DNA from: Chaetoderma sp. LZ-2023a
Taxonomy: Eukaryota > Mollusca > Caudofoveata > Chaetodermatida > Chaetodermatidae
DNA: 64,000 nt
NCBI GenBank assembly: GCA_034401795.1
Contig: CM067369.1
Span: 87,384,506-87,448,505 of the forward strand
Reading direction: 5' to 3'
Part shown: piece after piece, positions 16,498 to 52,520 of the stretch
Layout of the letters: every line of letters starts with the position of its first letter
Position numbering within the stretch: the stretch's first letter is position 1
Program-made: the position numbers and the translations under genes
The notes under the pieces: model-generated
The model's database searches: none
Told to the model about the DNA's origin: nothing
What the model saw: only the letters and a program-made list of their open reading frames with translations

Positions 16498-16535
16498 TAA
16501 ACGAAATCACGGATTTCTTTTTTCATGAGAGTTGA

Positions 16536-16712: not shown

Positions 16713-16784
16713 TGACACATGCAACTATTAGGAGCCTGAAGACCGAGCCTCTGTGGGGTGGAGAGGCCGGGTCCGTATTAGGGA

Positions 16785-20220: not shown

Positions 20221-20285
20221 AGGTGGACATAAGGAGTGCAAGAGCCAGAAACACCGGAGTGGTTCTCACCGTGGTAACCGACCCA

Positions 20286-23243: not shown

Positions 23244-23421
23244 GCCAATAAATTAGCAAAGAGGAAGTGCTAGTCTGCGCATGCGCGGTGGTGGGGCTGG
23301 CATCCGCCGGACTGCTCTCTGACTCCCTGCCCAGTAGGGGCACCTAACTGTTTTTATTCTGAGTGTTTATTGAGTGAAAGCCGATATTTAGCAATATCAA
23401 AGAGTATTAGGGAGGTAAGTA
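23244..23421. repeat. DIRS-1 right inverted terminal repeat
   Basis: Reverse complement of 16536-16712. It is followed by the extension GTATACTCTTGAAGTGAAA to the element end at 23437. Confidence 0.9.
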
Positions 23422-23437
23422 TACTCTTGAAGTGAAA

Positions 23438-25377: not shown

Positions 25378-25386
25378 CAGTAGTAA

Positions 25387-25428
<42 letters not shown>

Positions 25429-25430
25429 AC

Positions 25431-25488
<58 letters not shown>

Positions 25489-25547
25489 ACGTAGTAGTAG
25501 TAGTAGTGGCAGCAGCAGCAGCAGCAGTAGCAGTAGCAGTGGTAGTG

Positions 25548-25641
<94 letters not shown>

Positions 25642-25664
25642 CAGTGGTAGTGGCAGTGGCAGTG

Positions 25665-25738
<74 letters not shown>

Positions 25739-25841
25739 TGTGGTAGTAGTGGTGGCAGTAGTGGTGGTAGTAGTGGTGGTAGTAGTGGTAGTAGTAGTAG
25801 TGGTAGCAGTAGTAGTGGTGGTAGTAGTGGTAGTAGTAGTG

Positions 25842-25896
<55 letters not shown>

Positions 25897-25903
25897 CAGC
25901 AGC

Positions 25904-25999
<96 letters not shown>
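25378..25999. repeat. (GTA)n microsatellite, about 620 bp, 5' flank of LINE-1
   Basis: Nearly pure GTA/TAG triplets, with interruptions by GGT, GCA and single GAC variants. Frames here give poly-Val, Ser, Thr or Leu and are not genes. It ends exactly at the LINE-1 5' end (GTAGT|CGAAGTG). On the BAP18 sense strand the whole tract reads (TAC)n and contains no AG dinucleotide. Confidence 0.97.
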
Positions 26000-26698
26000 C
26001 GAAGTGAACGCACGCATTTATTAGCTCTGCAATTGCTGCCCGAATTTGCTAGTTTCTAGCGTGATTTTGTAGATAAATTTTTTACATATATTTCGTATTA
26101 GTATTTCCTTTCAAACTTTATGTTTAATTTATAAATTCTTGTCTTGGTTGGAGAGGATTTTGTGTCTCCATTTTCTAAAAGCACTCCTCTTAGCTGGCCA
26201 TTTCCGCCATTTAATAGGGCTCCTCTTACTGCATTCAATGCAATACATTTCTCCCCGCGCCAGTATGCTCTTTCTATAGTTCATTGGGTAGCGCATTATA
26301 TTTGCCAAGATCGCTAGGGTGAGTAGATTTAATTCCTTTGTCATTTGTAAGCGCAAGCCTAGTTCTTTAATTATATAAAACCGTATAGTCAGTTGGCTGT
26401 CCTCAGTCAACTCGAACAGACTAACAAATATATGACTGTACTATCTATTCATATATCTGTTAGTATACTTTAATCAGTTAGGTGTCAGTGAACCACTTAA
26501 CAAGTGGTTCAAACTAACAAATATACGACTGTACTCTCTATTCATATATTTGTTGGTAGATGTCAGGGTTTCAAAAGGGGACACTATTTATTTAGTGTTT
26601 AGCTCTTTCCCTGATGTCTTGGTACATTGTATTTTATATTTGTATTATCGCCATTATATATTGTAGTAGTATGGGTTTCCTCTTTTTTTAATAACACC

Positions 26699-28057
26699 AT
26701 GGCAACCTTCTTTAAGCGTACCCTAAGCCTTAAAATAACAACAAAATGGTGGGGTGTCACGGCTATCGACGTGTATCATTGGTTAAAGGGCGTCGTTGGC
26801 GCGGGACCTGCTGTTTTGCAGGGGCTTATCAATGTTACTAAAACTGTATGGAATGTGACTGTGGCGAATGAAAGTATTAAGGAGAAGCTGCTAGAAGAGG
26901 TCCTTGTTGTGAAAGGCGAAGTGTGTAATGTAGAAAAAATCGAGTCGGATAGGTTGTTAGTTAAAATGAAAGTTCCATTGGAGATTCCAGATGAACGAAT
27001 CATGAATGAACTGAAAAAGTATGGTAAAATACAGAAAATTGAAAGGGAAACATATCTGTTTGACAGAACTTTGGAGAATGGTGTAAGGCGCATCTGGTTT
27101 GAAAAAGTGGATATCACTTTGCTAAACAGATTGACGCTTGATGGCAGCTTTGTTCTGCCATTATGGTATAGAGGGCAGATAAAAGAATACAGAATCTGCC
27201 TTAGTACTGACCATCTTGCAGCAGATTGCCCAAATAGAAATAAATGTTTGCTCTGTGGTTCAACTGGCCATTGCTAATGGCGCTGTCCAAACAACAAAAA
27301 CAACCGCACAGTAGAAGTACGCAATCCTACATTAAAGGATGCACCTGAGACAAATGCTTCTGATGACATCGCTGCAGAAGCTACCGTCGAAGTTCATGCC
27401 ACTATAAAGGTGACAGAAAAGGCAGCAAATCCTATTGAAGTAACTGCGGATGATGAGATAGAAATATTAGAGGAGGGAATAACTTTAACCCCAGAAATTA
27501 ATCAAAATGTGGTGAGGCCCATTATGGATGTAAATGAAATACACACGAATGATGATAGTAATGGAGACGCAGATCATTACTCTTTAGAAGAGGACTTAAT
27601 ATTAGGACAGAGTAAATTTAGGTCACAGAAAACAGAAAGCGCTGTCGATTTCCCGCTAAGCCCGATTGATCTAAGTCAGCTTGAAGTTATGGGGGATGGT
27701 GTTGCTGCCAAATGTAATTCAAGTGGCAGTAAGCTCCAGAGAGAAGACAATAGCTCAGAATCTGAGATTGACGAAAATGATATGGATGATGATACAATGT
27801 CAATTGCAGAATCAAATGTGTCAATACAAACACAGAGTTCACAGATGAGAGATGAAATGGTGATGTACCGATCAGAAGGTGGTGAAGTGTTAGTGCCCTA
27901 TGTAATGGCGAGAGGCGTTAAATATCGTCTACTGCGCCATGATTCTGATATTTCCAAATATGAATATTTGTCTGTGGTAGAACTAGGAAACATTGAATTC
28001 GCAGGAAAATTAGGTAAATGGTCTAAGAAACGAGCTAAAAAAACCAAACCAAGTTAA
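26699..28057 (+). pseudogene. LINE-1 ORF1 (nucleic-acid chaperone type), internal stop
   Basis: Begins MATFFKRTLSL, matching LINE-2 ORF1, so the more upstream in-frame ATG at 26627 is not used here. The first about 190 residues form a conserved globular part ending in CCHC-like motifs: CLSTDHLAADC, and CLLCGSTGH with a final C after the break. A TAA at 27274-27276 interrupts the second knuckle. The frame continues as an acidic tail with SSESEIDENDMDDD and ends with a basic KWSKKRAKKTKPS. ORF1 proteins of this type bind element RNA. Without the stop the frame would be about 453 codons. Confidence 0.85.
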
Positions 28058-28061
28058 TCTA

Positions 28062-31000
28062 ATGATGGCGGTTGTAAACATCATTTTACTAATTATGATT
28101 ATCTGCACCATAAATTGCAGAGGATTAAACACCGAAGTCAAGCAGCGTCACTTGCTTGAAGAATTAGCAAATGAGAGGGTTGATATTGCTTTTCTACAAG
28201 AGACCAAAATTCAAAAACATGAAGTTATGAATCTCTCAAAAATATTTCAAAAGGGCAGATTTTTGATTTTTTATCACAAGACAATAGTGCGGGAGTGGCC
28301 ATTCTTATCCTGTTGTTGGAGGCATTGGGATGAAAAGAGAAGTTTGTATGAATGTATAACAGACTGGTGGGAGGATGCTAAATCCGACCGGAAACATATT
28401 TCAAGGCAGTATCCCATCAGGAAAGCACGAGAAATGCGAAAGCGTAAAAAGGCGCCTCAGAGGTCGGTGTGTAAAATTAATAAGAAAATTAATGATGGAG
28501 AATATAATTATTATGAACTATTAGTTAAATTAAAAGGTAGACTAAATGAACTAGAGCAATATCAGTTTGATGGCACCAAAATAAGGGCAAGAGCACAAAT
28601 GCACACCGAGGGTGAAAAGCCTACAAGTTACTTTTGTAAAAAGCAAGAGGTATAGAGAAATTAATGCGCTCACAGAAGACTAATGATGGTGTATCAGTGT
28701 CCTCAAATGCAGAGATGATGGAAACAGTATCCAAATTTTACACATCATTGTATAAATCTTAGGGAAGTGATGAAGCTGCAACTAGAGATATTTTAGCTAA
28801 TATAACGCAAAGACTTCCAGATTCATGTCGCGAAAGTTGTGACCAATCACTAACAATTGATGATCTGACAAAATCCCTCAAAGGTATGAAGTTAGAAAAG
28901 TCTCCTGGCTGCGACGGACTTCCAGTCGAATTTTAGCAAACATTCTGGCACATATTTGGTCCAGTATTAGAAGAAATAGCAGCTAGCATTTTTAAGCAAG
29001 GGCATCTCCCTCCATCGATGGCCCAAGCATATGTTCGGCTTATATACAAGAGGGGTGAGAGAAATAAAATACAGAATTATAGACCAATCTCTCTACTCTG
29101 TGTAGACTATAAGATTATTACTCGGGCACTAACATTAAAACTTGGCGCAGTCCTAGGTGAAATAATTGATGATGATCAAAAGTGCTCTGTACCAGGAAGA
29201 ACAATATTAAACAACACACTGCGTGTACGAGACCTTATTCAATTGGTTGAACAGGATTGCATCCCAGCAGCAATAATAGCACTTGATAACGAGAAGGCGT
29301 TTGACAGACTTGAATGGGATTTCTTGTTTAAGTCTTTAGACCATATTGGCTTTGGTCCCAGATTTATTAAATGGGTCAATATTTTACATACTGATATAAC
29401 AAGTTGCTATTTTTAAATAATCATCTATTTGAACCTGTAGTGTTGGAACGAGGTGTCAGACAGGGTTGCTCATTGTCTCTGCTTCTATTCGTCAGCTATG
29501 GAATCGTTTGGGGCCACATTGAGGCAACGTAATGATTTTCAGGGAATATATATACGTGGGATAGAAAGGCCACCAAAGGTGTCTCAATATGCAGATGATA
29601 TGACTGTGTTTGCAGGTAAAAATTCAGATTTTAGAATTTTAAATGGAATATTATCAGATTTTCAAAAGGCATCAGGGCTTAAGGTCAATAGAGACAAATC
29701 TAAGAGATTATTTATGGGCGCTTGGAAGGACTGGAAAGAAAGGCTATCCAAGCTAAAGTGTGCATTAGTAAATTGGAAACGACGTCGCCTAACTGTATTT
29801 GGCAGGACATTTGTCCGCAATAATTAAATTTTATCTGGACTGTGGTATACCGCTTCTGTAGTTCATATGCCCAAATAAGTAGAGTCAAAGATCAGCACAT
29901 TACTTTTGTCATTCTTATGGGAGGACAAAGCCCATTTAGTATCGCAGTCCATCCTCACCAATGAAGAGCATGATGGAGGCCTGGATTTGGTCAATGATTT
30001 AGCAAAGTGTGCTTCTTTAAAACTGAAATTCTTGCATAAGTTACTCACTTCAAACTCATCTTGGTCAAGTGTTGCAAGGACACTTCTACAAAGGTACGTA
30101 GATCCATTTCCAGTAGAATGTTTATTTTTGTGCAATAAATTGCCACCTAACCATCAGAAGATACCAAACATATATAAAGAACAGCTCGAAGCTTTACAAA
30201 TATTTAGACGATCAATGCCACAACCCAGTTGTTGGGAAGATGCCTTAGAGCAACGTCTTTGGCGCAACGAGTTGATTCGTGATAATGATGCTGTATTATA
30301 TTTGCCCTCCATGGCCAAAAATGGCACTCAATATTTACATGATTTAGTAAATCCAAAATCTCGCAAATGGATTGCGATGCGAGATGTAGCAAGAGCAACA
30401 TTAATGCGGCATATTGATGCTCAACGCTTATTTCTTAGAATAAAGAGTGCAATACCTGGTGAATGGTTCAAATTGCCAAAAGCATGTGGCAACAGAGATA
30501 TGTTGCAACCAACATTAGTATTTAAGTCAGAGCATATAAAATACAACATGGCATCTAGAGACTGGTATGGAATGTTAATGCAAAGTCGGAGACAATCTCC
30601 TATTGCAGTTAGGCATTGGAACAATTTAGGATGCACGCCAAAGAACTGGAAAAATGCATGGAAAACAATACATCTACCTTGTCTACCAACAGATGCACAG
30701 GACCTGGCATGGCGATTACTCCATCGAAGGCTATGGGTCGGCCATCTGACTTATATGTGCAAAATAACAGGTACAGACCGGTGCTTATTATGTAATACTG
30801 AGGAGGAAACAATAAACCATCTGTTTACACAGTGTTGTACAGTTACAGGCTTTTGGGTATATATCAATATGCTCTTTGCTAAATTTGGAATCAAATATGT
30901 GAAATTAATGGCTGAAACAATTATGTTCAAAGATTGCTCAACTATCGGACGAATCATTAATAGCAAGGAGAAAGAATTTTGACCATTGTTGATATAATGC

Positions 31001-31129
31001 ATTCATTGTGAATTTTACAGGCTAGTGGAACATGGAAAAGAAAGTAGATTTAAAGATGTATGGTGCAAAACTGGCCTAGTATCAATTGAACACGGATATC
31101 TAAAAATAGCAGAAGCAGAACTTATATAA
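28062..31129 (+). pseudogene. LINE-1 ORF2 (endonuclease/RT), disrupted
   Basis: Starts just after ORF1. The N-terminus shows the APE endonuclease start (CTINCRGLN, FLQETKIQ). About 590 bp of the endonuclease core present in LINE-2 is missing after 28315, removing the GDFN and SDH motifs. RT motifs follow: [51 protein letters not shown] and the catalytic QYADDMTVFA near 29587. The C-terminal part (29906-30982) carries WRLLHRRLWVGHLTY and a CLLC...H...C zinc-like motif. Several stops and frameshifts (e.g. 28934, 29414, 29824) break it. The family end reads WCKTGLVSIEHG up to the stop at 31127-31129. Confidence 0.88.
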
Positions 31130-32082
31130 GCTAGCACACTCGCTGCTTGTTGTATATTGATATATGGTATTTTATTTAATTTAATTGACTTTATTTAAAA
31201 AATTTTAATATCTGAGGAGATGATAATGTTGATAATGTTAAGCCTACATGTAACCTTGGGAATCGGTATATTAAAACATCAAATGAGCATCGCGTCAATA
31301 TTCTGGAGGTGATCCGACTTTCGAGTTCATTAGGCTAACAGAGTATGACATCTTACATATATACAATTAGCATCCTGTTGTAAATGTTTACTGTAGGTGT
31401 ATTTGTTCCAGGGTAATTTGCAAAAACTTACAATGAAGTAAATTTAGAATGTGAACCCAAAGCACCATCTATGTAGTCATAGTTTGTATACTTTTGCTTT
31501 GTGCATTATACGACATAAAGGCTACTACACCTGTCCGGTATTTAAGAATCAGCTAACTGGCGTCAGTGAGTGACCTTTTGTTACTTATTGACGAGTCACC
31601 TCGCCAGTTGTTGGCGAGCTGCACTCGCCTTTTTTTTTTGGGCCTAATACTATGCGGTGTGCTACGTTAACCTACATATGATCTACTGAGCTTGCCGGTC
31701 ATGAATCGGCTCAATGGCATCAATGAGTAGCAATAACTTACTGCTAATTATTGATGAGTCGCTTTACCACTTGTTGTGTAACTATGCTCGCCATTTGGGC
31801 CTACTACTACTACACTGTGTGCAAATAGTAATGGCTTTGTTGAATTATATTATGTTATCAGCTCTTTATTAAGTTTTTTCTATGTAGTTATGCCATGGGT
31901 GTGGTATATGGTAGTAGAGTATTTTAGCTTGCACTGTTTTGATATGTTAAGTTTGTATTGTTATTCATATACTAGTAATAACGCCTGCTATTTCACCCGA
32001 TTTTTTATGGGGTTTGTAAGCCTTTTTTAAAGGAGTTCCTCCGTGAAGTGTGTCCGACTGCGTCAGCGTCGGATTTTCAAAA

Positions 32083-32084
<2 letters not shown>
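31130..32084 (+). other. LINE-1 3' UTR
   Basis: Non-coding. It includes two diverged versions of a block around GGCGTCAGTGAGTGAC and GACGAGTCAC (near 31560 and 31715), the counterpart of the tandem duplication in LINE-2. It ends CTGCGTCAGCGTCGGATTTTC and then A6 next to (GTA)n. Confidence 0.8.

Positions 32085-32142
<58 letters not shown>
32085..32142. repeat. (GTA)n microsatellite after LINE-1
   Basis: A pure run of 19 triplets directly abutting the LINE-1 3' end. It could be part of the original target or be made by the LINE during insertion. Confidence 0.97.
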
Positions 32143-33306
32143 GTGACGGTAGCGGTATGTATGTATGATTACTGTACTCTGAGGCTGTAGTAGTAGAAAC
32201 ATCCTACAGCTGCAATCAGTCCTTCGTTTTTGCCCACTGTGTCTTGTCCTCTGCCAACATCCTTACAGTAGCTTCCTCAGGTCCATTCTTGACTTGAGTG
32301 TACCTAATCCTGCTTTCTTGAGGTTACCTCGTAGCACGCTTAGCAGATTTATGCAATGACGTTCTCTCCTGGCTCTGTATTTGCTGGCTCCGAGTAGGGA
32401 GAATTCCAAGGCTCTCTGTGCTGGTGTGTCTTCTGGCATCCTTAGCACAGGGCCAAACATGGACCATCTTTGCTGGGCGACCTTTACAGACAGCGGCAGC
32501 ATATTACACATCTTGTATAGTGCATCGTTGGAAATTATCCTCTCTGGCCATCGGTGTCCAGTGACGGTGCGAAGGTGTTTGCGGTGGCAGGCGTCAAGTT
32601 TGTCTAGAGCTGCCTTTGGAGCTGCCCAGCTGTTAGAGTTATACATCATCAAGGATACGCAGGTTGCATTGTATAAACGTAGTCTTTTTACCAAGGGCAT
32701 GCTTGATCTACGAATCCATAGCTTCCAGAAGGACTGGAAAGCTATGTTCCCCATGATGCAGCATGCAGCAATGTCAGCAGTACTGCAAAGCAGTGAGCCC
32801 AGGATTTTACTTTTCCTCCATGGATCGCCGCCGTGGAGTGCATCGTCATTTTCTATTAAAAGCACAGGGGATAGACCATCTCCCGGTGCGGAGCTGATTG
32901 ATGTTTCAAACTCTACAGACTTCACTGACATGTCTGCAGGCATTAGTCTCACTAGTCGTAGCTCATCTTCAATGCAACTGGCCTGGCATAGGACATCTAG
33001 GATCTTTGAGCGTTTAATTGTGTTGAAGGCTCGTGACATGTCAATGCCTATTTTGTGGAAATCCCAGTGTTTGGACATGACTACAGACACAAGCATGCAT
33101 TGAGATCATACAATGTCTGTGCAGCTGCGTCCACATTTGAAGCCACTTTGACATGATCCGGTGAAGTCGTCGATCTTGTCTCAGATGCGGCATAGAGTAA
33201 CATTGGATAGGATTTTCCGTATGCTGTTAAGGAGCACAAAATGGGCCACAGATTGGCTGGGGGGGCCAGGTGGCTTCTTGGGCTTGGGTAGCGCGATATG
33301 GATGCC
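32143..33306 (-). pseudogene. Second LINE family, 5'-truncated RT fragment
   Basis: Minus-strand fragment of a different non-LTR retrotransposon. Near 33300-33180 it reads PKPKKPPGPP and VLLNSIRKILSNVTL (early RT motifs), then GIDMSRAFNTIKRSKILD (RT motif A region). The catalytic YADD region has been deleted. The C-terminal part carries RLRLYNATCVSLMMYNSNSW, LDACHRKHLRTVTGHRWP and FGPVLRMPEDTPAQRALEFSL. The clade is uncertain. The 3' end is a CATA-type tail (32150-32165 on the plus strand). A second piece of the family lies at 52145-52508. Confidence 0.85.
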
Positions 33307-33357
33307 TTGGTGGTGGTGGTGGTGGTGTTGGTGGTGGTGGTGGTGGTGGTGGTAGTG

Positions 33358-33418
<61 letters not shown>

Positions 33419-33472
33419 TGGTGGTGGTTGTAGAGGTAGTGGGAGTGGTGGTAGTGGTGGTGGTGGTGGTGC

Positions 33473-33548
<76 letters not shown>
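33307..33548. repeat. (TGG/GTA)n microsatellite, 5' flank of LINE-2
   Basis: GGT-rich at the left and centre, with (GTA)n runs between and at the right. It ends exactly at the LINE-2 5' end (GTAGT|CGAAGTG), as at LINE-1. Confidence 0.96.
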
Positions 33549-34219
33549 CGAAGTGAATGCACACGTTTATTTAGCTCTGCAATTGCTGCCTGAATTTGCT
33601 AGTTTCTAGCGCGATCTGGTAGATAAATTTTATACATATATTTCGTATTAGTATTTCCTTTCAAACTTTATGTTTAATTTGTAAATTCTTGTCTTGGTTG
33701 GAGCGCATTTTGAGTCTCCATTTTCTAAAGGCACTCCTCTTAGCTGGCAGTTTCAGCCATTTAATAGGTCTCCTCTTACTGTGGTCAATGCAATACTTTT
33801 CTCCCGCGCCAGTATGCTATTTCTATAGTTCGTTGGCTAGCGCATTATATTTGGCAAGATCGCTTGAGTGAGTGGATTTAATTCCTTTGTCATTTGTAAG
33901 CGCAAGCCTAGTACTTTGATTTTATAAATCTTTATAGTCAGTTGGCTGTTCTCGGTCAACTCGAAAAGACTACAAATATATGACTGTAATATGTTAGTAT
34001 GCATTAGGAAACCACTTTAATCGGTTAGGTGTTAGTGAACCACTTAGAAAGTGATTCTAACTAACAAATATACGACTGTACTATCTATTCGTATATTTGT
34101 TGCAAAAGGGGACACTATTTATTTAGTGTTTAGCTCTTTCCCTGACGTCTTGGTATTATATATTTGTATTACCCCTTATATATTGTAGTAGTATGGGTTT
34201 CCTCTTTTATTAAAACACC

Positions 34220-35629
34220 ATGGCAACCTCCTATAAGCGTACCCTGAGTCTTAAATTCACGACAAAGGCTTGGGGTATTTCGGCAATTGAGGTGTATCAT
34301 GGGTTGAAGGATGTAGTTGGGGCAGGGCCACGGGTCCTTCAAGGTCTCATTAACGTTTCCAAATCTGTATGGAATGTCACCGTAGTTAATGAAAGTGTGA
34401 AGGAAAAGTTGCTCGACGAGGTCCTTGTCGTGAAGGGTGAGGTGTGTAATGTGGAGGAAATAGATTCTGATCGTCTATTAGTCAAGATGAAGGTTCCATT
34501 AGAGATCCCAGATGAATGGGTTATCAATGAATTGATCAAGTATGGCAAAGTGGACAAAGTAGAACACGAGACCTATCCATTTGATCGAACCTTAGAAAAT
34601 GGCATCAGAAGAATTTGGTTTGAAAAGGTAGAACAACCTCTCCCAAGTAAGGTCACGATAGATGGTCGATTTGTCTTGCCATTATGGTACAGGGGGCAAA
34701 TCAAAGAGTGTAGAATCTGCTTAAGCACAGAACATCTTGCAACAGATTGCCCTAACAAAAACAAATGTCTAGTTTGTGGATCATCTGATCATCTTAAGTA
34801 GCGATTCCCGCAGAACAAATATGTCAAAAAGGGTGCTGATAAAAGTGCCGAGCAAGTTGTCTCTAAAGAGAATGTCATAGAACCGGTAGCTGCTGAGATT
34901 GTAGCTGAAATCCATGTTAATGGGAAGCACGTTGCTAAAGAAAATGTCATCGAACCAGTAGTTGCTGAGATTGTAGCAGAAGTCCATGTTAATGAGAAGC
35001 ATGGTGAAAAAACTAAGAATCCAATCGCTGTAGTTGCAGGCGATGAAATAGAGGTTCTAGATGAGGGGCTAAGTCTTACTCCAGTAACAAGTCAATCCAA
35101 GTCTGATGTCAGAGAGGCTAATTCCACACAAGTTGAAGATGATGATCAATACCCTCTGGAAGAGAGTTTTAATTTAGAACAAGTAAAATTCAGGTCGCAA
35201 GATACTGAAACTAACTTTGATTTTCCACTCAGTACACTCAATCTAGACAATTTAAATAATATAGAGAAAGTAATTGGTGTCTCGGATCGATTGAGTGGAA
35301 CAAAGCGACAGAAAGATGGAGATAGTCCTGAATCAGAAATAGAGGAAAGTGATATAGAAGACGATAATATGTCAGAGGCTGAATCCGATATATCCATTGA
35401 AACACAGAGTCCTAAGTCACCCGATGAAATGGTCATGTACAGGTCAGAGGCAGGAGAGGTGTTAGTTCCATATGTGATGGCAAAAGGGGTTAAATATAGG
35501 CATCTGCGTCATGATTCAGATATATTAAAATGTAAGCATTTGGAAAAAGTTGAGCTAAGTAGTGCAGCGTTTGCGAGTAAAATAGGTAAATGGTCTAAGA
35601 GAGGGGCGAAAAAAACAAAATCTAGTTAG
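34220..35629 (+). pseudogene. LINE-2 ORF1, internal stop
   Basis: Starts MATSYKRTLSLKF, as in LINE-1. The conserved part ends in CLSTEHLATDC and CLVCGSSDH. A TAG at 34799-34801 stops the frame one codon later than the TAA in LINE-1. The aligned LINE-1 codon is TGG (Trp), so this is a separate G-to-A change. After the stop an internally duplicated block is visible (VSKENVIEPVAAEIVAE and AKENVIEPVVAEIVAE, 34855-35000), absent from LINE-1. The tail is acidic (ESEIEESDIEDDNMSEAESD) and ends in KWSKRGAKKTKSS. About 470 codons in all. Confidence 0.85.
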
Positions 35630-35636
35630 CTTAATA

Positions 35637-38047: not shown

Positions 38048-38087
38048 TAAACGAAATCTAGGATTTCTTTTTTCACGAGAGAGTTGA

Positions 38088-38263
38088 TACTTACCTCCCT
38101 AATACTTTTGATATTGCTAAATATTGGCTTTCACTCAATAAACACTCAGATTTAAAACAGTTAGGTGCCCCTACTGGGCAGGGAGTCAGAGCGTAGTCTG
38201 GCGGATGCCAGCCCCACCACCGCGCATGCGCAGACTAGCACTTCCTCTGACTAGATTATTGGC
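38088..38263. repeat. DIRS-2 left inverted terminal repeat
   Basis: Reverse complement of 44881-45057. It includes TACTTACCTCCCT, CAGTTAGGTGCCCCTACTGG and CGCGCATGCGCAGACTAG. Confidence 0.93.
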
Positions 38264-38332
38264 TGACACACATGCAACTATTAAGAGCCTGAAGACCGAG
38301 CCTCTGTGGGGTGGAGAGGCCGGGTCCGTATC

Positions 38333-38435
38333 TAGGGAGGTAAGTATCAACTCTCTCGTGAAAAAAGAAATCCTAGATTTCGTTTATTTCACTTCAAGAG
38401 TATACTTACCTCCCTAATACTTTTGATATTGCCAG
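38333..38435. repeat. DIRS-2 internal complementary region (ICR)
   Basis: 38333-38386 is the reverse complement of the left end of the element (38048-38101). 38387-38435 is the reverse complement of the right end (45025-45073). The junction reads GATTTCGTTTA|TTTCACTTCAAG. This is the hallmark of DIRS elements, in which the ICR templates restoration of the ends. Confidence 0.92.
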
Positions 38436-38963
38436 AATTCGAAAGTGAATCTGGCGGGAGGGAGGCGAGGTCAAAAGACCAGCTCATCCCTATACGCTTT
38501 TCTGCGTTTAAGGCACTTAAACTTCTGAAACTGTAAGAAAAAACAGTCAGGATTTGACTAACCATCGGATAACACCACCGATGTATGAGAGATGACCGAA
38601 TGTCATATGCGCTCCCCCCCCTCCTTCCTGGGAGGAAGAGTCGACTGACCTCAATGTCCTATACGCTCTCTACGTACAAGTGCCATGTACTACAGGACAG
38701 AGACGAAAAAGCTCCATTTTCGTAACTCTCAACAATGAACCACACAAATACACAAACCATCACCATATTAATAACGGGTAATCGTGACAATACAATCAAC
38801 AACGGACAACACATGAACAAGACTGACCTTGTTGAAAATGGCTGCTGACATCATCTTCCCATTGGTAAAGACTGATGCAGGCCCAAAAAAGTGGGTGTTT
38901 CCATAAATTAATTGTGAAATATATAAGTAATGAGGAAAACCTCCTCAAAAAATATAAACCGAT

Positions 38964-39977
38964 TTATTTTTTCAAAACCGACAAGGCGAGAGGATTAGAG
39001 GTGTCACGGAGATAATGGTCTGTAAAACTTGACTCACAGTGCCACTGAGCCACCGACATAATATCATCCACAGGGACCCCATTAAATAGGGCCGTGGATG
39101 TCACTACGCCGCGGACACTGTGAGCCTTGGCCACGTCAACCTGCTTCCCGGTGGCGGATTTATGGCAAAACTGAATGCATTCCACAATCCACCTGGAAAT
39201 GGTGTCCTTAGAAGCCCTCCCATGGGGTTCAATATATGACAACCATAACGCTGACTGGTCGGTGCGCCATGCCGCCGTACGTTGTTTGTACCGGCGCAGC
39301 GCCCGGACGGGACACCATGCTTTAGAATTAGGATCATATCTAGTTAAAGCAGGCAAAATAATAGGTTGACCTGGATATTTCAACGACTGATTTTTAGCCA
39401 AGAAATTAATCCTAGGTAGCAGCTTAAGGCCTTCCCCTGAAACCACAAAACGGTCATCCTCGGCTGATAAGGCATGAATTTCACTCCTACGCCTAGCCGA
39501 GGCCGCAGCAATTAAAAACACAGTCTTCAGTGTTAATAGTTTCATAGAAATGGAACTAAGTGGTTCAAAAGGCTTATCACCTAGTACTTGAAGCACTAGC
39601 GATAAACTCCAAGACGGAATCACAGGTGGATTCCTTGGTCTTAGATTGCCCATGCCTTTAATTAATACATTCAATGTATTTACTTCATCACTTCCCCTCT
39701 TAGCCAAGCAAGGAATAACAGACATTAATGCTGACTTATAACCAGCAATAGAGTTAGGCTTGAGGCTATAGGCATCATAGAGGTGACAGAGGAAATCAGC
39801 TACTACTTGAATAGATGAATCCATTGGATCAATACATCTTTTTGAGCACCATTCTGCAAATCTGTTGATTTTATAATTATATGCTCTGGAGGTTGACCCC
39901 CTCCTGGCTTTGGCCATAAACATGGCTGCTTGCTCAGAAAAGCCCTCCTTAATTCTAGATTCCTTGACAACATCCAC
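38964..39977 (-). CDS. DIRS-2 tyrosine recombinase
   Basis: The domain reads VDVVKESRIKEGFSEQAA at its start and RAYNYKINRFAEWC in the core-binding region. The catalytic set follows: ASARRRSEIHAL (Arg), AHSVRGV (His-x-x-Arg), AQWHCES and TDHYL (Tyr). The recombinase would integrate the circular DNA intermediate. There is no ATG at the domain start: the Met of DIRS-1 at this place is Val here. The frame stays open upstream without a stop as far as 42161, overlapping the RT/RNase H gene. Expression may therefore use an upstream start, splicing or a frameshift (inference). About 338 codons are counted from the conserved start to the stop at 38964. Confidence 0.93.
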   Translation of the reverse strand: MDVVKESRIKEGFSEQAAMFMAKARRGSTSRAYNYKINRFAEWCSKRCIDPMDSSIQVVADFLCHLYDAYSLKPNSIAGYKSALMSVIPCLAKRGSDEVNTLNVLIKGMGNLRPRNPPVIPSWSLSLVLQVLGDKPFEPLSSISMKLLTLKTVFLIAAASARRRSEIHALSAEDDRFVVSGEGLKLLPRINFLAKNQSLKYPGQPIILPALTRYDPNSKAWCPVRALRRYKQRTAAWRTDQSALWLSYIEPHGRASKDTISRWIVECIQFCHKSATGKQVDVAKAHSVRGVVTSTALFNGVPVDDIMSVAQWHCESSFTDHYLRDTSNPLALSVLKK

Positions 39978-41845
39978 GCAGTCAATCTGAACATTGACGG
40001 ATTGTTGTGAAGGGCCTTGCCCTGGAAGATAATATCGTCCATCAGAGGCAGAGGAACCGGATTGCAGACCAGAAGGTCCAGCAGATCCGTATACCATGAT
40101 CGGCTTGGCCAATCCGGGGCGATCAGAAGCACTTGGCATTCCTCTTGTCTGATTTTCTGAAGAATTTTTGGAATCAGGATTGCTGGAGGGAATGCGTATG
40201 CATACATTCTCCCCCAGCTGATAGCTAACGCATCTGTTGCGAAAGCGCTTGGATCCGGAATCGGAGAGACGTACGTCGTCATCTTCGCATTCTTCTTCGT
40301 TGCGAACAAATCGATGTTGGGTTTCCCCCAATGGTCGAACAGACGATCCGCCACACATTGATTTAGTTGCCATTCCGTGGGTAAAACACTCATCCTTCGG
40401 CTCAATGAGTCTGCTAGCAGGTTTAACCTTCCCGGAATATGAACTGCTTTCAAGGTAATCTGGTGATCCAGACACCAACAAAGCAGTTTCCATTTCATCA
40501 TACAGAGACTGGGCGACTTCGTTCCGCCCTGGCGGTTTATGTAAGTCACAACTGTTGAGTTGTCTGAACGAATAAGAACAATCTTGCCCTGAACTTTCTG
40601 TAAGAAATGTTCCAGGCCCAGGACTACTGCTCTTAGCTCCAGTAGATTTATATGTTCCTGTGACTGTTCCAGATTCCAAAGCCCTGATATCGTGGATTCT
40701 TCCAGGCAAGCTCCCCAGCCCTCCATCGATGCATCTGTATACACAGTCACCTGAGGGTGGGGAGGGGTTAGCAAAACCCCCGGCAAGAGATTCTCTGTAT
40801 TCAACCACCATTGCAGGTGGTGAATCAGAGGCGCCAACACTGACACATTCGAGTCCAGCGAACCTGTACTCTGGGTCCATTGTGTCATGAGAAACAACTG
40901 GATCGGCCGCCTGCGTAAGGCGGCCTGAGGAATGACCGGTTCCAACGAAACCATCAACCCCAGCATTCTCAAGTAAACCCGTGCCAGGACATGACGACTG
41001 TCGCACACTGACTGAATCAACGAGATGAGTATTTGAACTCTCTCCTGAGTAGGATAAACATATCCTGTCTCTAGATCGAAGAACATCCCCAGGTAAACAA
41101 ACTTCTGGGATGGAGTCAGCTCTGATTTTGGGAAATTGATCATCCAGCCCAAGTCTGTGAGAATTTTCAAAACAATCTCCAGATTGGCGGACAAACTTTC
41201 CCGGGTGTGCGCTTTCAACAGCCAGTCGTCTATGTACGTGTGGACTGCTATGCTTCTCCTGCGGAGGTATGCTGTGATCGCAAGAACCACACGGGTGAAA
41301 ACCCGAGGAGCCGTGGAAATTCCGAAGGGCAACACCCTGAATTCCCACTGTCTGCCCTGGAATGCAAATCTCAGGAAGCGACAGAAACTCCCGTGGATGG
41401 GGATGTGGAAATAAGCGTCCTTCAAATCTATCGACGCCGTCCACATCCCCCTCTCCAACCCCGCCAACACCGAGCGCACCGTTTCCATCTTGAAACTGGG
41501 CGTCTCGATGAACTTGTTCAATGGCTTGAGGTTGAGAATCGGTCTCCACCCACCGGTGCGTTTTGTTACTAAGAACAGGGTTGAATAGAAGCCCGGACAC
41601 TTTTGTGCCGGCTGAATAGCTCCCTTTTGTATGAGGGAATTTATCTCCTCCTCGATACACAACCTTTGCTCTGGATCTCTCGGAATGGGAGTCCAGACTG
41701 GCACCAGAGACAGTCGCGACGGCGGGCCTGTCACCCACTCTGGATGATACCCGACGGAAAGCCATCGCAAGACTAAACGGTCCTGAGTTAACCGTTCCCA
41801 CTCTTGCAGGTGGCCGGCCGAGGGACCGCGGTGGACACGAGGCAT
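39803..41845 (-). CDS. DIRS-2 reverse transcriptase/RNase H (680 aa)
   Basis: Complete frame from ATG at 41845. RT motifs: FLVTKRTGGWRPILNLK (residues about 91-107), SIDLKDAYFHIP (about 138-149), LPFGISTAPRVF, and the catalytic YIDDWL (about 204-209). RNase H motifs: VYTDASMEGWGACLEE, NLLELRAVVLGLE, RSDNSTVVTYINRQGG and HIPGRLNLLADSLSR. The C-terminal about 170 residues overlap the start of the recombinase in another frame. The start lies 65 bp after the gag stop, so translation may be coupled or reinitiated (inference). No stop or frameshift is visible. Confidence 0.94.
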   Translation of the reverse strand: MPRVHRGPSAGHLQEWERLTQDRLVLRWLSVGYHPEWVTGPPSRLSLVPVWTPIPRDPEQRLCIEEEINSLIQKGAIQPAQKCPGFYSTLFLVTKRTGGWRPILNLKPLNKFIETPSFKMETVRSVLAGLERGMWTASIDLKDAYFHIPIHGSFCRFLRFAFQGRQWEFRVLPFGISTAPRVFTRVVLAITAYLRRRSIAVHTYIDDWLLKAHTRESLSANLEIVLKILTDLGWMINFPKSELTPSQKFVYLGMFFDLETGYVYPTQERVQILISLIQSVCDSRHVLARVYLRMLGLMVSLEPVIPQAALRRRPIQLFLMTQWTQSTGSLDSNVSVLAPLIHHLQWWLNTENLLPGVLLTPPHPQVTVYTDASMEGWGACLEESTISGLWNLEQSQEHINLLELRAVVLGLEHFLQKVQGKIVLIRSDNSTVVTYINRQGGTKSPSLCMMKWKLLCWCLDHQITLKAVHIPGRLNLLADSLSRRMSVLPTEWQLNQCVADRLFDHWGKPNIDLFATKKNAKMTTYVSPIPDPSAFATDALAISWGRMYAYAFPPAILIPKILQKIRQEECQVLLIAPDWPSRSWYTDLLDLLVCNPVPLPLMDDIIFQGKALHNNPSMFRLTAWMLSRNLELRRAFLSKQPCLWPKPGGGQPPEHIIIKSTDLQNGAQKDVLIQWIHLFK

Positions 41846-41910
41846 GCAAGAGCGGCACTGTCTCCGCCGCCATACACACCGGAGTGGTTCTTACCGCGGT
41901 AAGCGTCCTG

Positions 41911-44040
41911 TCAGGACCGATAACCACGCCCAGATCCTCGCGCGCCCCGCCCCGCCCCGCGCGCACCTCGGTGCGCGGGCGGCTGCCTGGCTGACGGCGC
42001 CTGAGGAACCTGCGCCCCCCTCGCTGCTGGCCGAATCGCACGCGGCCGAGGCCGACGCTGCGACGGTGGCTGGCCACTGACCTGGCCAGCACCACCTCGA
42101 GCCTGCAGGGGACGATACGCCGGGGCCGCGGCGCGAGCGTTAGCACGACGCAGCACATCAAACTGCTCGCGCAGCGCCCTCTCGTTATTCACCAGGGTGA
42201 CCGTCTCCTGGAGGTGGCGACATCCCTCACCTCCAAAAAGACCAGGGCCCGTCATAGGCGTACGCAGTAGCCTATTGTACAGGTCCTGAGACGGGCACAA
42301 ATTGTCCAGGGCAAACGTGCGTCTTGCCCTGACACTCCTGGTCACCGCCCGAGTCACACAGTCCAGTGCCAGGTTAATACCATCCTGGATGGTTCGCTGG
42401 ACAGTGACCGGACTTGGCTGGCGCGATGCGGATGCCGTTACTACCCCCTGTAACAGCTGGGAGACGTGGGACAGAGCGGCAATCGAAGCCCTCCCACTCT
42501 CCTCCGCATCACGCAACGCGGCATTCGCCGAACGCAACGCGTTCGCGCACAAGACACCCGTGTCAGAACGGGAGCCTGGCCGCGCATCCTCACCCAAAGC
42601 CGCGTGGTCATCCACGCTGGGCTTGGGTACCACACCGTACCGCTGGTAATCCAGGGGCACGATGCGACAACGCCTGGCCACCTCGCGAGGGGCCTTCGCG
42701 AGCCGTCCACTCAACTTAATGGACGACTCCGCCGCCTTGAACATGTCAACGACATGCTCCGCCAGCGGCAGAGAAGGCATAGCGTTAGCAGTCGGTTTCC
42801 CAGCTAACCACGGCGTGTGAACACGCTGGCTAGCCGACTGCTCCACGGGCAGATCAGGCCTAACGCTCACCAACCACTGGCAAGCGTCATACCAATCCTC
42901 CTCCGTGGCTAACTGCGAGCGCTCTACAAGACGGGGTCCTTCGTCTTCCTCCTGAGCGCAAGCAGTAGAGCTTGACGGCGGGTATGCTGATACACCTGGC
43001 AAGCCAGGGAAAACACGCGGGCCTGACAGCACCGGCATGAGAATATCACTGGTTTGACCAGGAGCAGGCACCGTGGCAGAGCGCGGGGTATATATAGTCT
43101 CACCACGGGCCCGGCCAGCACCAGCAACACCCTCGGCAAGCCGAGGTATGCGGTACCGCTGGCCATCAGCAGCGCCCTGGGCCACCACCTGAGCCGCGGA
43201 CTTTACTCCAGGGTGAGTAAAACCGTGGAACAAGGCGCCTGTATTCCCCGCGAGGGGTGCACAAACGTCTTCATCCATGTCCACGTCGTCAGACGGCGAC
43301 CCTAGCAGGTAATCCTCATTACCCTGGTCAGAAAGATTAGACCCCGGGTCAGCAAAGAGAGCTAACCCGGGCTGACCAGGAACGGTGCCATAGGAGGTAC
43401 TGGCCACCGCGGCGTGCGGATACCCCTGGACTGATAAGCAGCCCGCGGGTTCCAGCGACAACCGTCCACGGTCCCCTATCGGCGCGGCAATAAGCCTGCT
43501 GCCAGGGCCGTGGAACGCCCCCTCTAATGGGGCCACCTCTGAATCGTCGGACAACGGAAGCGGACTAAGGAAAATCGATCCAGAGGCGGGGATTACCTGC
43601 TCCGAAGCCGATGATGAGGACAGTAAAGGATTTGGTCCAGGAAGCATGCCACGAAGCAACCCTGGAACCAAATCCTTTATTGTCCTCTTCATCACTCCCA
43701 ACATCTCGGTCCGGAAGGCCTCCATATCCACCGCGGACGAGACCTTCCCCTTACCCTTCCTACTTACAACCTCTCGTTTCCGCTTCTTCTTCTTCTCCTC
43801 TTCTACCACCTTGTCCGTCGCCTGTAAACAGCACAAGAATTCGGACATTAACTCGCCCCCCCAGTGCTTACATATGTCACAATTAACCAATGGACCACAA
43901 GGGCTACATTGACAGCACAGATGCGGCCAGAACTTATCCGGCAGAAAACAACCACAGGACGCGCAACCCGGTCCCTGAAACAGGGCAAAGGACAAGGAGT
44001 ATGAGCAACTAGTTAAGCTTAGAAACTCAATCCAACTCAA
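41911..44040 (-). CDS. DIRS-2 gag-like protein (709 aa)
   Basis: The N-terminal cysteine-rich segment reads CASCGCFL, LCCQCSPCGPL and CDICKHWG (residues about 28-65), probably zinc-binding. A basic stretch follows (EEEKKKKRKREV, RKGKGK). The central region is polar and low in complexity. Conserved blocks shared with DIRS-1 are LAEHVVDMF, APREVARRCRIVPLDYQRYGVV and RTFALDNLCPSQDLYNRLL. The C-terminal end is RG-rich (RGARGAGRGARGSGRG). By position and composition this is the capsid/RNA-binding protein of the element. The start at 44040 is the first ATG of the frame; the DIRS-1 frame starts closer to the Cys cluster, so the true start may lie further in. Confidence 0.82.
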   Translation of the reverse strand: MSWIEFLSLTSCSYSLSFALFQGPGCASCGCFLPDKFWPHLCCQCSPCGPLVNCDICKHWGGELMSEFLCCLQATDKVVEEEKKKKRKREVVSRKGKGKVSSAVDMEAFRTEMLGVMKRTIKDLVPGLLRGMLPGPNPLLSSSSASEQVIPASGSIFLSPLPLSDDSEVAPLEGAFHGPGSRLIAAPIGDRGRLSLEPAGCLSVQGYPHAAVASTSYGTVPGQPGLALFADPGSNLSDQGNEDYLLGSPSDDVDMDEDVCAPLAGNTGALFHGFTHPGVKSAAQVVAQGAADGQRYRIPRLAEGVAGAGRARGETIYTPRSATVPAPGQTSDILMPVLSGPRVFPGLPGVSAYPPSSSTACAQEEDEGPRLVERSQLATEEDWYDACQWLVSVRPDLPVEQSASQRVHTPWLAGKPTANAMPSLPLAEHVVDMFKAAESSIKLSGRLAKAPREVARRCRIVPLDYQRYGVVPKPSVDDHAALGEDARPGSRSDTGVLCANALRSANAALRDAEESGRASIAALSHVSQLLQGVVTASASRQPSPVTVQRTIQDGINLALDCVTRAVTRSVRARRTFALDNLCPSQDLYNRLLRTPMTGPGLFGGEGCRHLQETVTLVNNERALREQFDVLRRANARAAAPAYRPLQARGGAGQVSGQPPSQRRPRPRAIRPAARGAQVPQAPSARQPPAHRGARGAGRGARGSGRGYRS

Positions 44041-44880
44041 AGAGAAGGAAAACGATCATAAAGATCAATATACATCAGAAACCAGCATAGCGCTTGAATT
44101 GCTGATAAACACATAGCCAGGCTGATTATGACGTCATCAATCCCGTGACAGGAAAAATTCGATCCCAACAAAACATCCAAGTGCAAGGACGAATTGTATG
44201 CTGAATGGATAAGTTGACTACACAACCATCAGATACATATAGATAACTCTTTTCTGGCAAAAATGTTAATTATCTCCCTTTGTTTGTTTACAATAATTAA
44301 CATCACCACATTATCAATAACTAGATACCTGACACTTTGTATAGACAAACCATCCAACGTGACGAACCGGAGAACTCCACCATCTGCACGCCTCTTAACT
44401 CTCTCCACCTCATGGGGAAGGAATTGGATCAAGAGGGCAAAGTGAGAAGACCTTTATACTAGGCCTCCAACTCACTGGACATATTTTTCATTTGGTTAGA
44501 TAACCTAACAGTGTTAGTAGGAAATGGAACCATGGTGGAGAGAAAACTAACTCTCAGCAACTGTGATGTCACCACCTAGCGTCATACAGACCTGTGGACA
44601 TAAACAGAAAGAGAAATTAGTCCTAGGTAGCACCGAGTTGACCTAAACCAACTAACTAAGGCGCTTATCACGGTAAACGCGAGTCCCGGAAACACAATAC
44701 ACCGGGAAGAAAACTCGCTAATTTTACTAGAAGTCACCTGATTTAAAGGTCCTAAGTCCTTCTTTGGCGAATTGAAACTTCCCGCCATCCAAAAAAGTGA
44801 CTATCACACCAACCAACACCACTTAAACTAGTTTAAGATAAAGAAAAGCTTCAGCACAAAAAGACATGTGTGAACTCTCT
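44041..44880. other. DIRS-2 5' leader region
   Basis: Non-coding sequence between the right inverted repeat and gag. It matches 22362-23243 of DIRS-1, including CAATTGTATGC/CGAATTGTAT stretches and GGGGAAGGAATTGGATCAAGA. A promoter is expected here or in the terminal repeat, but I cannot point to a specific site. Confidence 0.6.
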
Positions 44881-45057
44881 GCCAATAATCTAGCAAAGAG
44901 GAAGTGCTAGTCTGCGCATGCGCGGTGGTGGGGCTGGCATCCGCCAGACTACGCTCTGACTCCCTGCCCAGTAGGGGCACCTAACTGTTTTAAATCTGAG
45001 TGTTTATTGAGTGAAAGCCAATATTTAGCAATATCAAAAGTATTAGGGAGGTAAGTA
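44881..45057. repeat. DIRS-2 right inverted terminal repeat
   Basis: Reverse complement of 38088-38263, followed by the extension up to GAAGTGAAA at 45073. Confidence 0.93.
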
Positions 45058-45073
45058 TACTCTTGAAGTGAAA

Positions 45074-46487
45074 TTGGCATTTTCTGGGCTATGGTATACA
45101 GCATCTGTTGTACACATGCCAAAACATGTGGAAAAGGAGGTTAATGAGTTGATATTGTCATTCATATGGGAAGAAAAGAATCATTTAGTTTTCCATCGTG
45201 TTCTCAATAATGCTAAGTTAGAAGGAGGACTTGATTTAATCCATATCAAAGTGAAATGTGTTTATTTAAGGTTAAAATTTTTGAATGATCTTATTACATC
45301 AGATGCGACATGGGCATGATGTGTTTCACGAGCTCTTGTGGAGAGAATTGTAAAACCATTTCTGGCGGAGTGTGTTTTTACCTCAAAGAAGCCACCTCTG
45401 AATAGCCAAATGATACCAGATGTGTTTAAAGATCAAGTTAAGGAGTTAGACATATTTAACAGATATATGCCTCCACCTACGTGCTGGAAGGAAGTACTAG
45501 AACAGCAATTGTGGGCAATAGTAATATATGTTATAACAATGCAGTACTTTATCTACAGGCCTTTGCAAAATATGGCATTCAACATTTGTCTGATATGATA
45601 CACCCTCAAACACATAGATGGATTTCAATGCAAGAAGTAGCTAGAAAAACACATATGAGGCATATAGATGTCCAGCGGTTGCTAAATAAAATAAAACATG
45701 CTGTACCAATTGAATGGTTTCGTCTGCCAAATGTAAATCATAATAATTTGACTCCTCAACCTGCATTAGTTCCTGATAATGAGATGTTAAAATACGAAAT
45801 GAGATCCAAGGAATGGTACCACATTATGAGACGAAACAAGTAACACCTCCCATAGCAATTAGGAGATGGGATGACTCAAGCTATAAACCATCCAGTTGGA
45901 AAAATGTATGGAAAATCTTACATTCTCCATACATACCAAATATGGCTCATGATTTATTGTGGCAATTACTACATCGACGGCTATGGGTGGGACACTTGAC
46001 ATACAAGTTCAATATTCCCACTTCTGATAGGTGTTACTTATGCCAAACAGATGAGGAAACAATCGAGCATTTACTTGCAGAATGTCCAATATCGTCACAA
46101 TTTTGGGAGTATATCAGCCAAATCTTGGCACAATTTGGAGTGAAGCCCATTGCTCTAGAAACACATGTAGTCTTATTTAGAGAATTTGGATCAAGCGGTG
46201 TAAATATCGTAAAGTTTGATAAGACTACTTTAATAACAATGCTAACCATAGGTTTTTGGGCCATTTGGAAACATCGGTGTGCGCAGATGAAAAATCCATC
46301 TATGGGCAATCACAATAGAGCAATAAAGGCAATATTTCGTTCATTGCTGCTGAATCATATTCCTTGCGAATATTTTAGATTAAAGCAGCATGGTAAAGAA
46401 AAAGTATTCAAGGACATATGGTGCAAAACAAACATAGTTTCAATAGAGTTGGGAACTGTAAAAATAAATGAGCCTGCACTAGCTTAA
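45074..46487 (+). pseudogene. LINE-2 ORF2, C-terminal part after DIRS-2
   Basis: Resumes in frame with LAFSGLWYTASVVHMPK, matching LINE-1 at 29830. It continues through WQLLHRRLWVGHLTYK and CYLCQTDEETIEHLLAECP, a zinc-finger-like C/H pattern seen in L1-type ORF2 tails. It ends WCKTNIVSIELGTVKINEPALA at 46487. A stop near 45317 and frameshifts near 45510 and 45830 break it. Confidence 0.88.
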
Positions 46488-47480
46488 ATCATTTAATTAC
46501 TACAGCTGATTTATCTGTGTCTTTTAATTAATCTGTGTCCTGTAATTCATTTTAGTCTGCACTTTGATATTGTTATGTTTAATAATTCATGGTAACAAAT
46601 AAACAGACTGGGGTAATTTAATAATCAATCGATAAAGTAAGTTGCCATTGAATTATAAAATCGTCCCAGATAATTTTAGAAACTTGCACAGGGTTTTATA
46701 GGGTTCCTGGGTAATTTACAAAACATTACAACAAAGTAAATCGAAAATGTAAACAAGAGCGCCATCTATTTCCATCTATTTTTCTGTAATTTTCCTGCCG
46801 ACTATATGTGTTATACTACCCAAATGCTACTACACCCGCTGATCTTTAAAGAATCAGCCCACTGGCCTCAATGATTGACTTATTTGTCATTGATTGACGA
46901 GTCACTTTTCATTTGTTGGATAGTTGCACTTGCCACACGAGCCTACTACCACACCTGGATTGAATAGTAATTTACAAAACCTTACAATAAAGTAAATCAA
47001 AAATGTAAACAAGCGCGCCATCTATTTTTCTGTAATTTTCCTGCCAACTGTATGTGTTATACTACCCAAATGCTACTACACCCGCTGATCTTTAAAGAAT
47101 CAGCCCACTGGCGTCAATGATTGACTTATTTGTCATTGATTGACGCGTCACTTTTCATTTGTTGGATAGTTGCACTCGCCACACGGGCCTACTACCACAC
47201 CTGGATTGAATAGTAATGCCTTTGTTAAGTTTTGTTTTGCTATCAGATCTTTATCAGCTTATTGTTTTGTATCTATACCATTTAAGCGGTATGTATTTAT
47301 AGATTGTATTAATGCTCATTAGTTAGATATGTTATTTATCTTTTGTTTTGGTGTAATATTAATCAGGCTTACTAATTCACCAGGGTTTTTCTGGGGGTTT
47401 GCAAGCCTTTTTAAAGGAGTTCCTCCGTGAAGTTTGTCAGACTGCGTCAGCGTCTGATTTTCAAAAAAAAAGGAAAAAAA
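46488..47480 (+). other. LINE-2 3' UTR with 256-bp tandem duplication
   Basis: 46711-46966 and 46967-47222 are tandem copies (GTAATTTACAAAAC, AGCGCCATCTATTT, CTACTACACCCGCTGATC). The duplicated unit includes a hairpin-like stretch around GTCAATGATTGAC and TCATTGATTGACG. The 3' end reads GTCAGCGTCTGATTTTC followed by an A-rich run and (GTA)n. Confidence 0.88.
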
Positions 47481-47524
47481 GTAGTAGTAGTAGTAGTATT
47501 AGTAGTGGCAGTGGTAGTAGTAGC

Positions 47525-47587
<63 letters not shown>

Positions 47588-47591
47588 AGTG

Positions 47592-47660
<69 letters not shown>

Positions 47661-47678
47661 ATGGTGGTGATGGTGGTG

Positions 47679-47743
<65 letters not shown>

Positions 47744-47774
47744 GGTGGTGGTGGTGGTGGTGGTGGTGGTGGTG

Positions 47775-47822
<48 letters not shown>

Positions 47823-47841
47823 CTAGTAGTACTAGTAGTAC

Positions 47842-47897
<56 letters not shown>

Positions 47898-47907
47898 CTA
47901 GTAGTAC

Positions 47908-47985
<78 letters not shown>

Positions 47986-47993
47986 CAGCAGCA
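47481..47993. repeat. (GTA)n microsatellite after LINE-2, about 510 bp
   Basis: Blocks of pure GTA with inserted GGT and GAT blocks and repeated ACTAGT interruptions. It starts at the LINE-2 3' end. The long Ser, Val and Leu frames here are simple-sequence artefacts. Confidence 0.97.
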
Positions 47994-52508: not shown

Positions 52509-52520
52509 ATTTTATATATA

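Follow-up and report, generated by a model that had tools for sequence, protein, structure and literature searches.

Among long interspersed elements (LINEs), the Tx1-clade families Kibi and Koshi, which Kojima and Fujiwara are said to have described in 2004, reportedly insert into (TC)n and (TTC)n microsatellites, and the target of Tx1 itself is another transposon. Tx1 and Keno belong to a target-specific branch of the L1 clade (PMC4640811, PMC3747384), and the target of Keno is the U2 RNA genes, not a trinucleotide repeat (PMC4640811). Restriction to microsatellites is also described for Togen, a set of (TG)n-specific families of non-long-terminal-repeat (non-LTR) elements related to the NeSL clade, and for some Hero families (PMC4640811). 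Unrelated element classes can choose microsatellites as well, as do some families of the CryptonV DNA transposons, which have a tyrosine recombinase (PMC8869645). Here we describe LINEs that very probably insert into (TAG)n microsatellites, mostly written (GTA)n below, in the mollusc Chaetoderma sp. LZ-2023a, starting from two copies, LINE-1 and LINE-2, in a 64,000-nucleotide stretch of contig CM067369.1 (hereafter the window). Like Kibi and Koshi, they have an apurinic-type endonuclease and lie inside a simple repeat; they differ in their target, (TAG)n, and in that it is common to at least three diverged families of one genome. The confinement to a microsatellite is shared with Togen and some Hero families, whose endonuclease is restriction-like (PMC4640811), whereas that found here matches the L1 type. 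No (TAG)n-specific element was found in the literature on microsatellite-specific LINEs or Penelope-like elements, of which subscription sources were covered incompletely, and absence from print is not implied.

In the window, both LINEs have the same repeat on either side. Their first bases, CGAAGTG, directly follow GTAGT, at position 26000 in LINE-1 and 33549 in LINE-2, a common start that a first-pass annotation of this DNA had pointed out. LINE-1 terminates near 32083 with CGGATTTTCAAAAAA followed by GTAGTAG, and LINE-2 near 47479 with CTGATTTTCAAAAAAAAAGGAAAAAA followed by AGTAGTAG. The first-pass annotation had also given both copies the same terminal A-run; both do end in an A-run before (GTA)n, but the two runs are similar and not identical. 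Tandem Repeats Finder (TRF) places (GTA)-type arrays, all on the + strand, at 25379-25999 (5′ of LINE-1, with variant GTG and GCA units in the sequence), 32084-32142 (3′ of LINE-1, (AGT)19), 33352-33548 (5′ of LINE-2, mixed GGT/GTA from 33308, the whole (GGT)n/(GTA)n array thus spanning 33308-33548) and 47480-47985 (3′ of LINE-2, (AGT)n). Perfect (GTA)-type runs of at least 15 bp make up only 951 of the 64,000 bases of the window, and the element-end patterns used in the genome-wide searches below gave no match in their controls. The placement of the LINEs in (GTA)n is therefore more than chance.

We searched the 2.44-Gb assembly that contains the window for both ends of the elements. The junction GTAGTAGTCGAAGTG occurs 1,860 times, against 15 occurrences of its reversed control. 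A second 5′ pattern of 33 nt started ~34 bases inside the element, excluding the flank to avoid building it into the result; with up to 3 mismatches allowed, it matched 2,828 places and its control none. We read the first 30 of the listed 5′ loci, exact matches that all lie on contig C1, and found a (GTA)-type repeat upstream of the element start in every one. The exact junction, AGTAGT followed by CGAAGTGAAC, was present in 22, the other eight varying at the junction or in the final units of the repeat. The upstream repeat is ~18 bp long in L033, which has a head-to-tail neighbor, and ~30 bp in L022; it is partly degenerate in L030 and L031, and in L017 an additional fragment of the 5′ end comes after it. 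It occupies the whole 75 bases shown in most of the remaining loci.

For the other end, a 27-nt stretch of the 3′ terminus, searched with no more than 2 mismatches, matched 2,703 places, with no match for the control; this total is close to that of the 5′ ends, but the patterns and mismatch limits differ. Seventy 3′ loci were read in two sets of 30 and 40 from the first 100 listed, all exact matches, and each showed an A-rich run followed by GTAGT. The distance from the 3′ end to the first GTAGT is 7-36 nt (median 19), and the intervening bases are on average 83% A. Counting the forward strand alone (reverse places are listed several times, forward places once), we found 458 occurrences of the exact 21-nt 3′ end, and GTAGTAG lies 3-33 nt further on in 434 of these. 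Tabulation of the flanks, as the first-pass annotation had proposed, thus gave (GTA)n beside every end read, and the idea that (GTA)n is a plain 3′ tail is rejected, as the 5′ flanks consist of it too.

In the loci read, then, ...AGTAGT borders the 5′ end, and an A-rich run leading into GTAGT comes after the 3′ end. We consider it very probable that non-LTR retrotransposons with L1-like enzymes use pre-existing (TAG)n microsatellites as their target, entering them in a single orientation and at a constant phase of the repeat. An apurinic-type endonuclease would nick the (ACT)n strand of the array, and an A-tailed RNA with a short terminal hairpin would be reverse-transcribed from the nick by target-primed reverse transcription, after which the 5′ end of the element would be rejoined within that array. 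Given the strand polarity of the array, later landings in it would produce head-to-tail neighbors, as in the window.

Several observations weigh against this reading or narrow its basis. Target-site duplications are invisible inside a microsatellite, so that we infer the cleavage positions. Twenty-four of the 458 exact 3′ ends lack GTAGTAG within 33 nt, as do 15 of 131 forward-strand ends of a third LINE group described below. Six of the 70 copies read at the 3′ end (L044, L062, L078, L082, L097 and L109) stop at other sequence, and in three of these (L078, L082 and L109) a (GTA)n array is present further upstream. The samples of 30 and 70 loci are exact matches in contig order, not random ones, and represent largely different copies; both flanks were scored on the same copy for the two window LINEs only, with separate 5′ and 3′ samples elsewhere. 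For at least 15 of 28 3′ places on C1, a 5′ end of matching orientation lies 5.3-9.3 kb upstream (12-kb limit); for the other 13 there is none among the listed 5′ ends, which are only part of the total and make this pairing a lower bound.

The repeat could instead be borne by the element, which would create or lengthen an array on insertion from an RNA carrying (GUA)n at either end or at both. This would account for the same repeat in the 5′ and 3′ flanks of all copies read and would fit a genome rich in (GTA)n, where 7 of 20 sampled arrays adjoin a LINE-1 or LINE-2 end; in addition, at one place (L008/L015) the upstream (GTA)n array contains scattered CGA units that resemble the first bases of the element. 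We regard it as unlikely, in view of the A-rich 3′ tail and of upstream arrays that differ in variant units and lengths. Moreover, were the repeat element-borne, copies truncated at the 5′ end would be expected to have none upstream. Alignment of the sequence upstream of the 3′ loci (1.5 kb for 30 loci, 0.7 kb for 40) showed that in 10 of the 70 the LINE match stops before the edge of the fetched stretch. In the truncated copies L045 (78 bp) and L092 (591 bp), (GTA)n lies at the truncation point or at most 5 bp from it, and in L075 (122 bp) 12 other bases separate it from that point on the upstream side; L093 has a DIRS-like element inserted in it.

The arrays themselves point the same way. 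Runs of (GTA)10 or more start at 26,639 positions in the genome, against 3,759 for the reversed pattern, and (GTA)n amounts to at least 0.8 Mb, a lower bound from this search of run starts. One hundred listed run starts form 50 clusters. The first 20 clusters on C1 were examined with ~100-450 bp of fetched flank per side; an end of the LINE-1/LINE-2 family was present in the flanks of 7 and absent from those of 13. With this number of run starts and 13 of 20 clusters free of such an end, (GTA)n arrays outnumber LINE-1/-2 copies. Since truncated copies keep (GTA)n upstream and most sampled arrays have no LINE-1/-2 end, the evidence favors (TAG)n arrays as a pre-existing target, which the elements may additionally lengthen.

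Two kinds of variant start were noted in the course of this reading. The short copies L075 and L082 have a common alternative start, GTAGTA followed by CAGCTCAGACA, which joins the 3′ region at a different internal point in each; they are perhaps deletion derivatives of another family. In the arrays L123 and L131, GTAGT is directly followed by other sequences faintly like the LINE 5′ end by eye, possibly further families.

LINE-1 and LINE-2 differ in sequence, as first annotated. Their 5′ untranslated regions (5′UTRs; 26000-26698 and 33549-34219) are 86.5% identical over 704 aligned positions, and identity in open reading frame (ORF) 2 is ~67%. The ORF1 proteins are 77% identical, with proportions of synonymous and nonsynonymous differences (pS and pN) of 0.77 and 0.13 (192 codons), and for the reverse transcriptase (RT) our own Nei-Gojobori script gave a synonymous divergence (dS) of ~2 and a nonsynonymous divergence (dN) of 0.21 (113 codons). 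Judging from these values, the two diverged in ancient times under purifying selection. Because the coding regions are near synonymous saturation and the protein is conserved, unlike after a local duplication, the two insertions are independent; repeated landing, and not one duplicated event, had already been proposed at the first pass, and local duplication of a single insertion is ruled out for the window pair. Given that the 5′UTRs are 86.5% identical while the coding regions are saturated at synonymous sites, we infer that 5′ ends have been exchanged between the two families.

Both families are common in the sample: by best match, 36 of the 70 3′ ends are LINE-1-like and 34 LINE-2-like, with the shortest pieces labelled unreliably. 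A third group, with a different 3′ hairpin, was first noticed upstream of LINE-1/-2 copies in L012, L020, L022, L027 and L030 and is also present in L044. Its ORF2 C-terminus is 34-46% identical to that of LINE-2 over 39-115 residues in L012, L022, L030 and L044; no such match occurred within the stretch examined in L020 and L027. The 3′ end of this group, in the exact form of L020, L022 and L027, occurs 250 times, and GTAGTAG follows at a distance of 3-33 nt in 116 of the 131 forward-strand occurrences. The (TAG)n habit is common to several diverged families.

Neighboring copies agree in orientation. Among 100 listed LINE 5′ ends (C1, 0-100 Mb), nine pairs within 15 kb have the same orientation and none the opposite one, where uniform placement would give 1.5 pairs of any orientation. 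This is predicted by repeated landing in a strand-polar repeat, although some pairs may be tandem duplications. If the clustered copies all descended from a single insertion that was multiplied by segmental or tandem duplication, with unequal exchange between arrays as the mechanism, one would understand the near-constant spacing of 6,954-7,042 bp in five of the nine pairs and the internal deletion common to L052 and L053, 14 kb apart. As a general explanation, however, this is very improbable: LINE-1 and LINE-2 belong to different families and are saturated at synonymous sites, the copies listed occur along C1 and also on C2-C5, and the isolated copies, all of them in (GTA)n, are left unexplained. 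Duplication may add to the neighbor count. Hardly credible is an unspecific endonuclease whose copies survived within neutral microsatellites and were lost elsewhere: selection against genic insertions is usual, but most of a 2.4-Gb genome presumably tolerates insertions, and survival fixes neither strand nor phase, whereas nearly all ends lie in (GTA)n at one phase and the listed neighbors have one orientation. Separately, we observed head-to-tail LINE copies with only ~15-25 bp of GTA-type repeat between them in L033, L059, L095 and L097.

The enzymes of the inserting elements were compared with solved structures and with Pfam, and no other LINE clades were among the matches. The LINE-1 RT is encoded in two open pieces (28937-29824, +; Pfam RVT_1 E = 7e-13 and 3.6e-06, the second just under the cut-off), and the first piece has human L1 ORF2p as its best solved-structure match (E = 2.3e-15), against E = 0.75 for R2. 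The endonuclease matches that of L1 with E = 6.7e-07 in its first half, 0.029 (weak) in its second half, and the LINE-2 piece of the window matches it with E = 5.3e-06; the Pfam match to Exo_endo_phos (E = 0.017) is below the cut-off. A zf-RVT domain (PF13966) lies at the C-terminus of ORF2 in both LINE-1 (29879-30979, +; E = 2.5e-09) and LINE-2 (45783-46484, +; E = 7.3e-14). By these similarities the RT and endonuclease are L1-like. Target-specific elements of the L1 group are described in two accounts (PMC4640811, PMC3747384), and by analogy with them membership in the Tx1 clade is likely.

Short hairpins are predicted directly before the A-rich run, at 32053-32073 (+) in LINE-1 (-12.8 kcal/mol, z = -1.84) and 47437-47457 in LINE-2 (-17.2 kcal/mol, z = -2.88); those of the third group have -11.3 and -12.1 kcal/mol, and the z-scores of the whole set, -1.6 to -2.9, are moderate. 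A hairpin in the same position has been described in other LINEs and in one lineage of plant L1 elements, where it likewise stands right before the 3′ tail but has a sequence unlike that found here (PMC3747384). One hairpin pair is C-G in LINE-1 and A-T in LINE-2. As proof of structure this compensatory change is weak, being a single pair that does not recur in the 70 copies.

A second, apparently unrelated type of element occurs at the same arrays. Some Penelope-like elements are said to prefer (CA)n, a preference that Craig and colleagues reportedly described in 2021. The element found here starts with CAATATTGTCAAC (CAATTTTG in L126) directly after the repeat in 4 of the 20 array clusters and at two other loci; its places are L052 (1810-3027), L109, L118, L121, L126, L129 and L133-L152. 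In the 1.2 kb read in L052, an ORF on the opposite strand matches the Pfam GIY-YIG domain with E = 0.00099 and 19.8 bits, where the curated cut-off is 22.6. By eye the element resembles Penelope-like elements, with which it would share the GIY-YIG-like domain and same-orientation tandems; those are described as preferring AT-rich targets (PMC11167929, PMC3846280), whereas one end of the element here abuts (ACT)n.

The end of the GIY-YIG element occurs 1,495 times in the genome, with a control of 0. Twenty further places were chosen down the list of 100 and read with ~100 flanking bases each; in 18, (GTA)n precedes the end as GTAGT followed by CAATATTG, and in the other two (L133 and L147) the sequence before it probably belongs to the opposite end of a tandem copy. 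Among 100 listed ends, 23 pairs within 15 kb have the same orientation and one the opposite, with 0.8 adjacent pairs expected. Between listed LINE and GIY-YIG ends, 10 pairs within 15 kb share the (GTA) strand and none are opposed, with 1.7 expected. The presumed other end, followed by GTAGTAG, gave only 3 matches genome-wide with up to 2 mismatches, and the idea that it too adjoins (GTA)n is unsupported. Either the other side of the element is not usually in the repeat or the true end is elsewhere, and for this element (GTA)n may be a target or a tail.

Taken further, (TAG)n may be a strand-polar landing zone common to three or more diverged families of L1-like LINEs and to the unrelated GIY-YIG element of Penelope kind. 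All of these would accumulate in shared arrays, with a fixed orientation relative to one another; LINE-1 and LINE-2 would owe their shared 5′ ends to exchange, and the elements might help to renew the arrays, much as ribosomal DNA and telomeres host several site-specific elements. We offer this wider reading tentatively, as one whose chances fall a little short of even. The LINEs join the microsatellite-specific LINEs already known, and a common landing zone for several LINE families and an unrelated element would be the surprising part.

LINE-1 (26000-32083, +) is decayed with both ends present, and self-comparison of the window shows that it lacks ~585 bp of endonuclease sequence found in LINE-2. 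Its ORF1 (26699-28054, +) is a single frame with a stop at 27275 and, by eye, a CCHC knuckle; in the LINE-2 homolog the Pfam zf-CCHC match is weak (E = 0.0023, below the cut-off). LINE-2 consists of a 5′ part with the 5′UTR, ORF1, endonuclease and part of the RT (33549-38047, +) and a 3′ part (45074-47479, +). Between these, at 38048-45073 on the - strand, lies an element of ~7 kb, delimited by self-match and ORFs and 86% identical to a second window copy at 16498-23437, which from the look of its ORFs we take to be DIRS-like.

A fragment of another LINE, so labelled by eye, lies antisense between the arrays (32143-33306, -, with an uncertain end boundary; ORF 32266-33105, -), and a Pfam search of it gave no match. 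That it is (TAC)n-specific is unsupported: in L048, other DNA comes after a match that extends almost to the end of the fragment, and ACT repeats come after a shorter match in L078. Relatives of this fragment lie near arrays in L078 and L126. Elsewhere in the window, a degenerate 18-bp unit forms an 8.7-kb tandem array of ~476 copies (1677-10360), and a transposase gene, Tc1/mariner-like by eye, is present in two inverted copies that are 99% identical and 4.8 kb apart (52514-54181 and 58940-60607).

A simple, abundant repeat as the target of a LINE lends itself to study, with a short duplex as endonuclease substrate and insertion scored without a special locus. That several diverged families use one target suggests a lasting specificity. 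Should an unrelated element use this target too, the niche would be the microsatellite as such, and the abundance of the repeat may be partly a product of the elements that live in it. TAG-type microsatellite markers in this lineage could then often adjoin LINE copies, as did 7 of the 20 sampled arrays.

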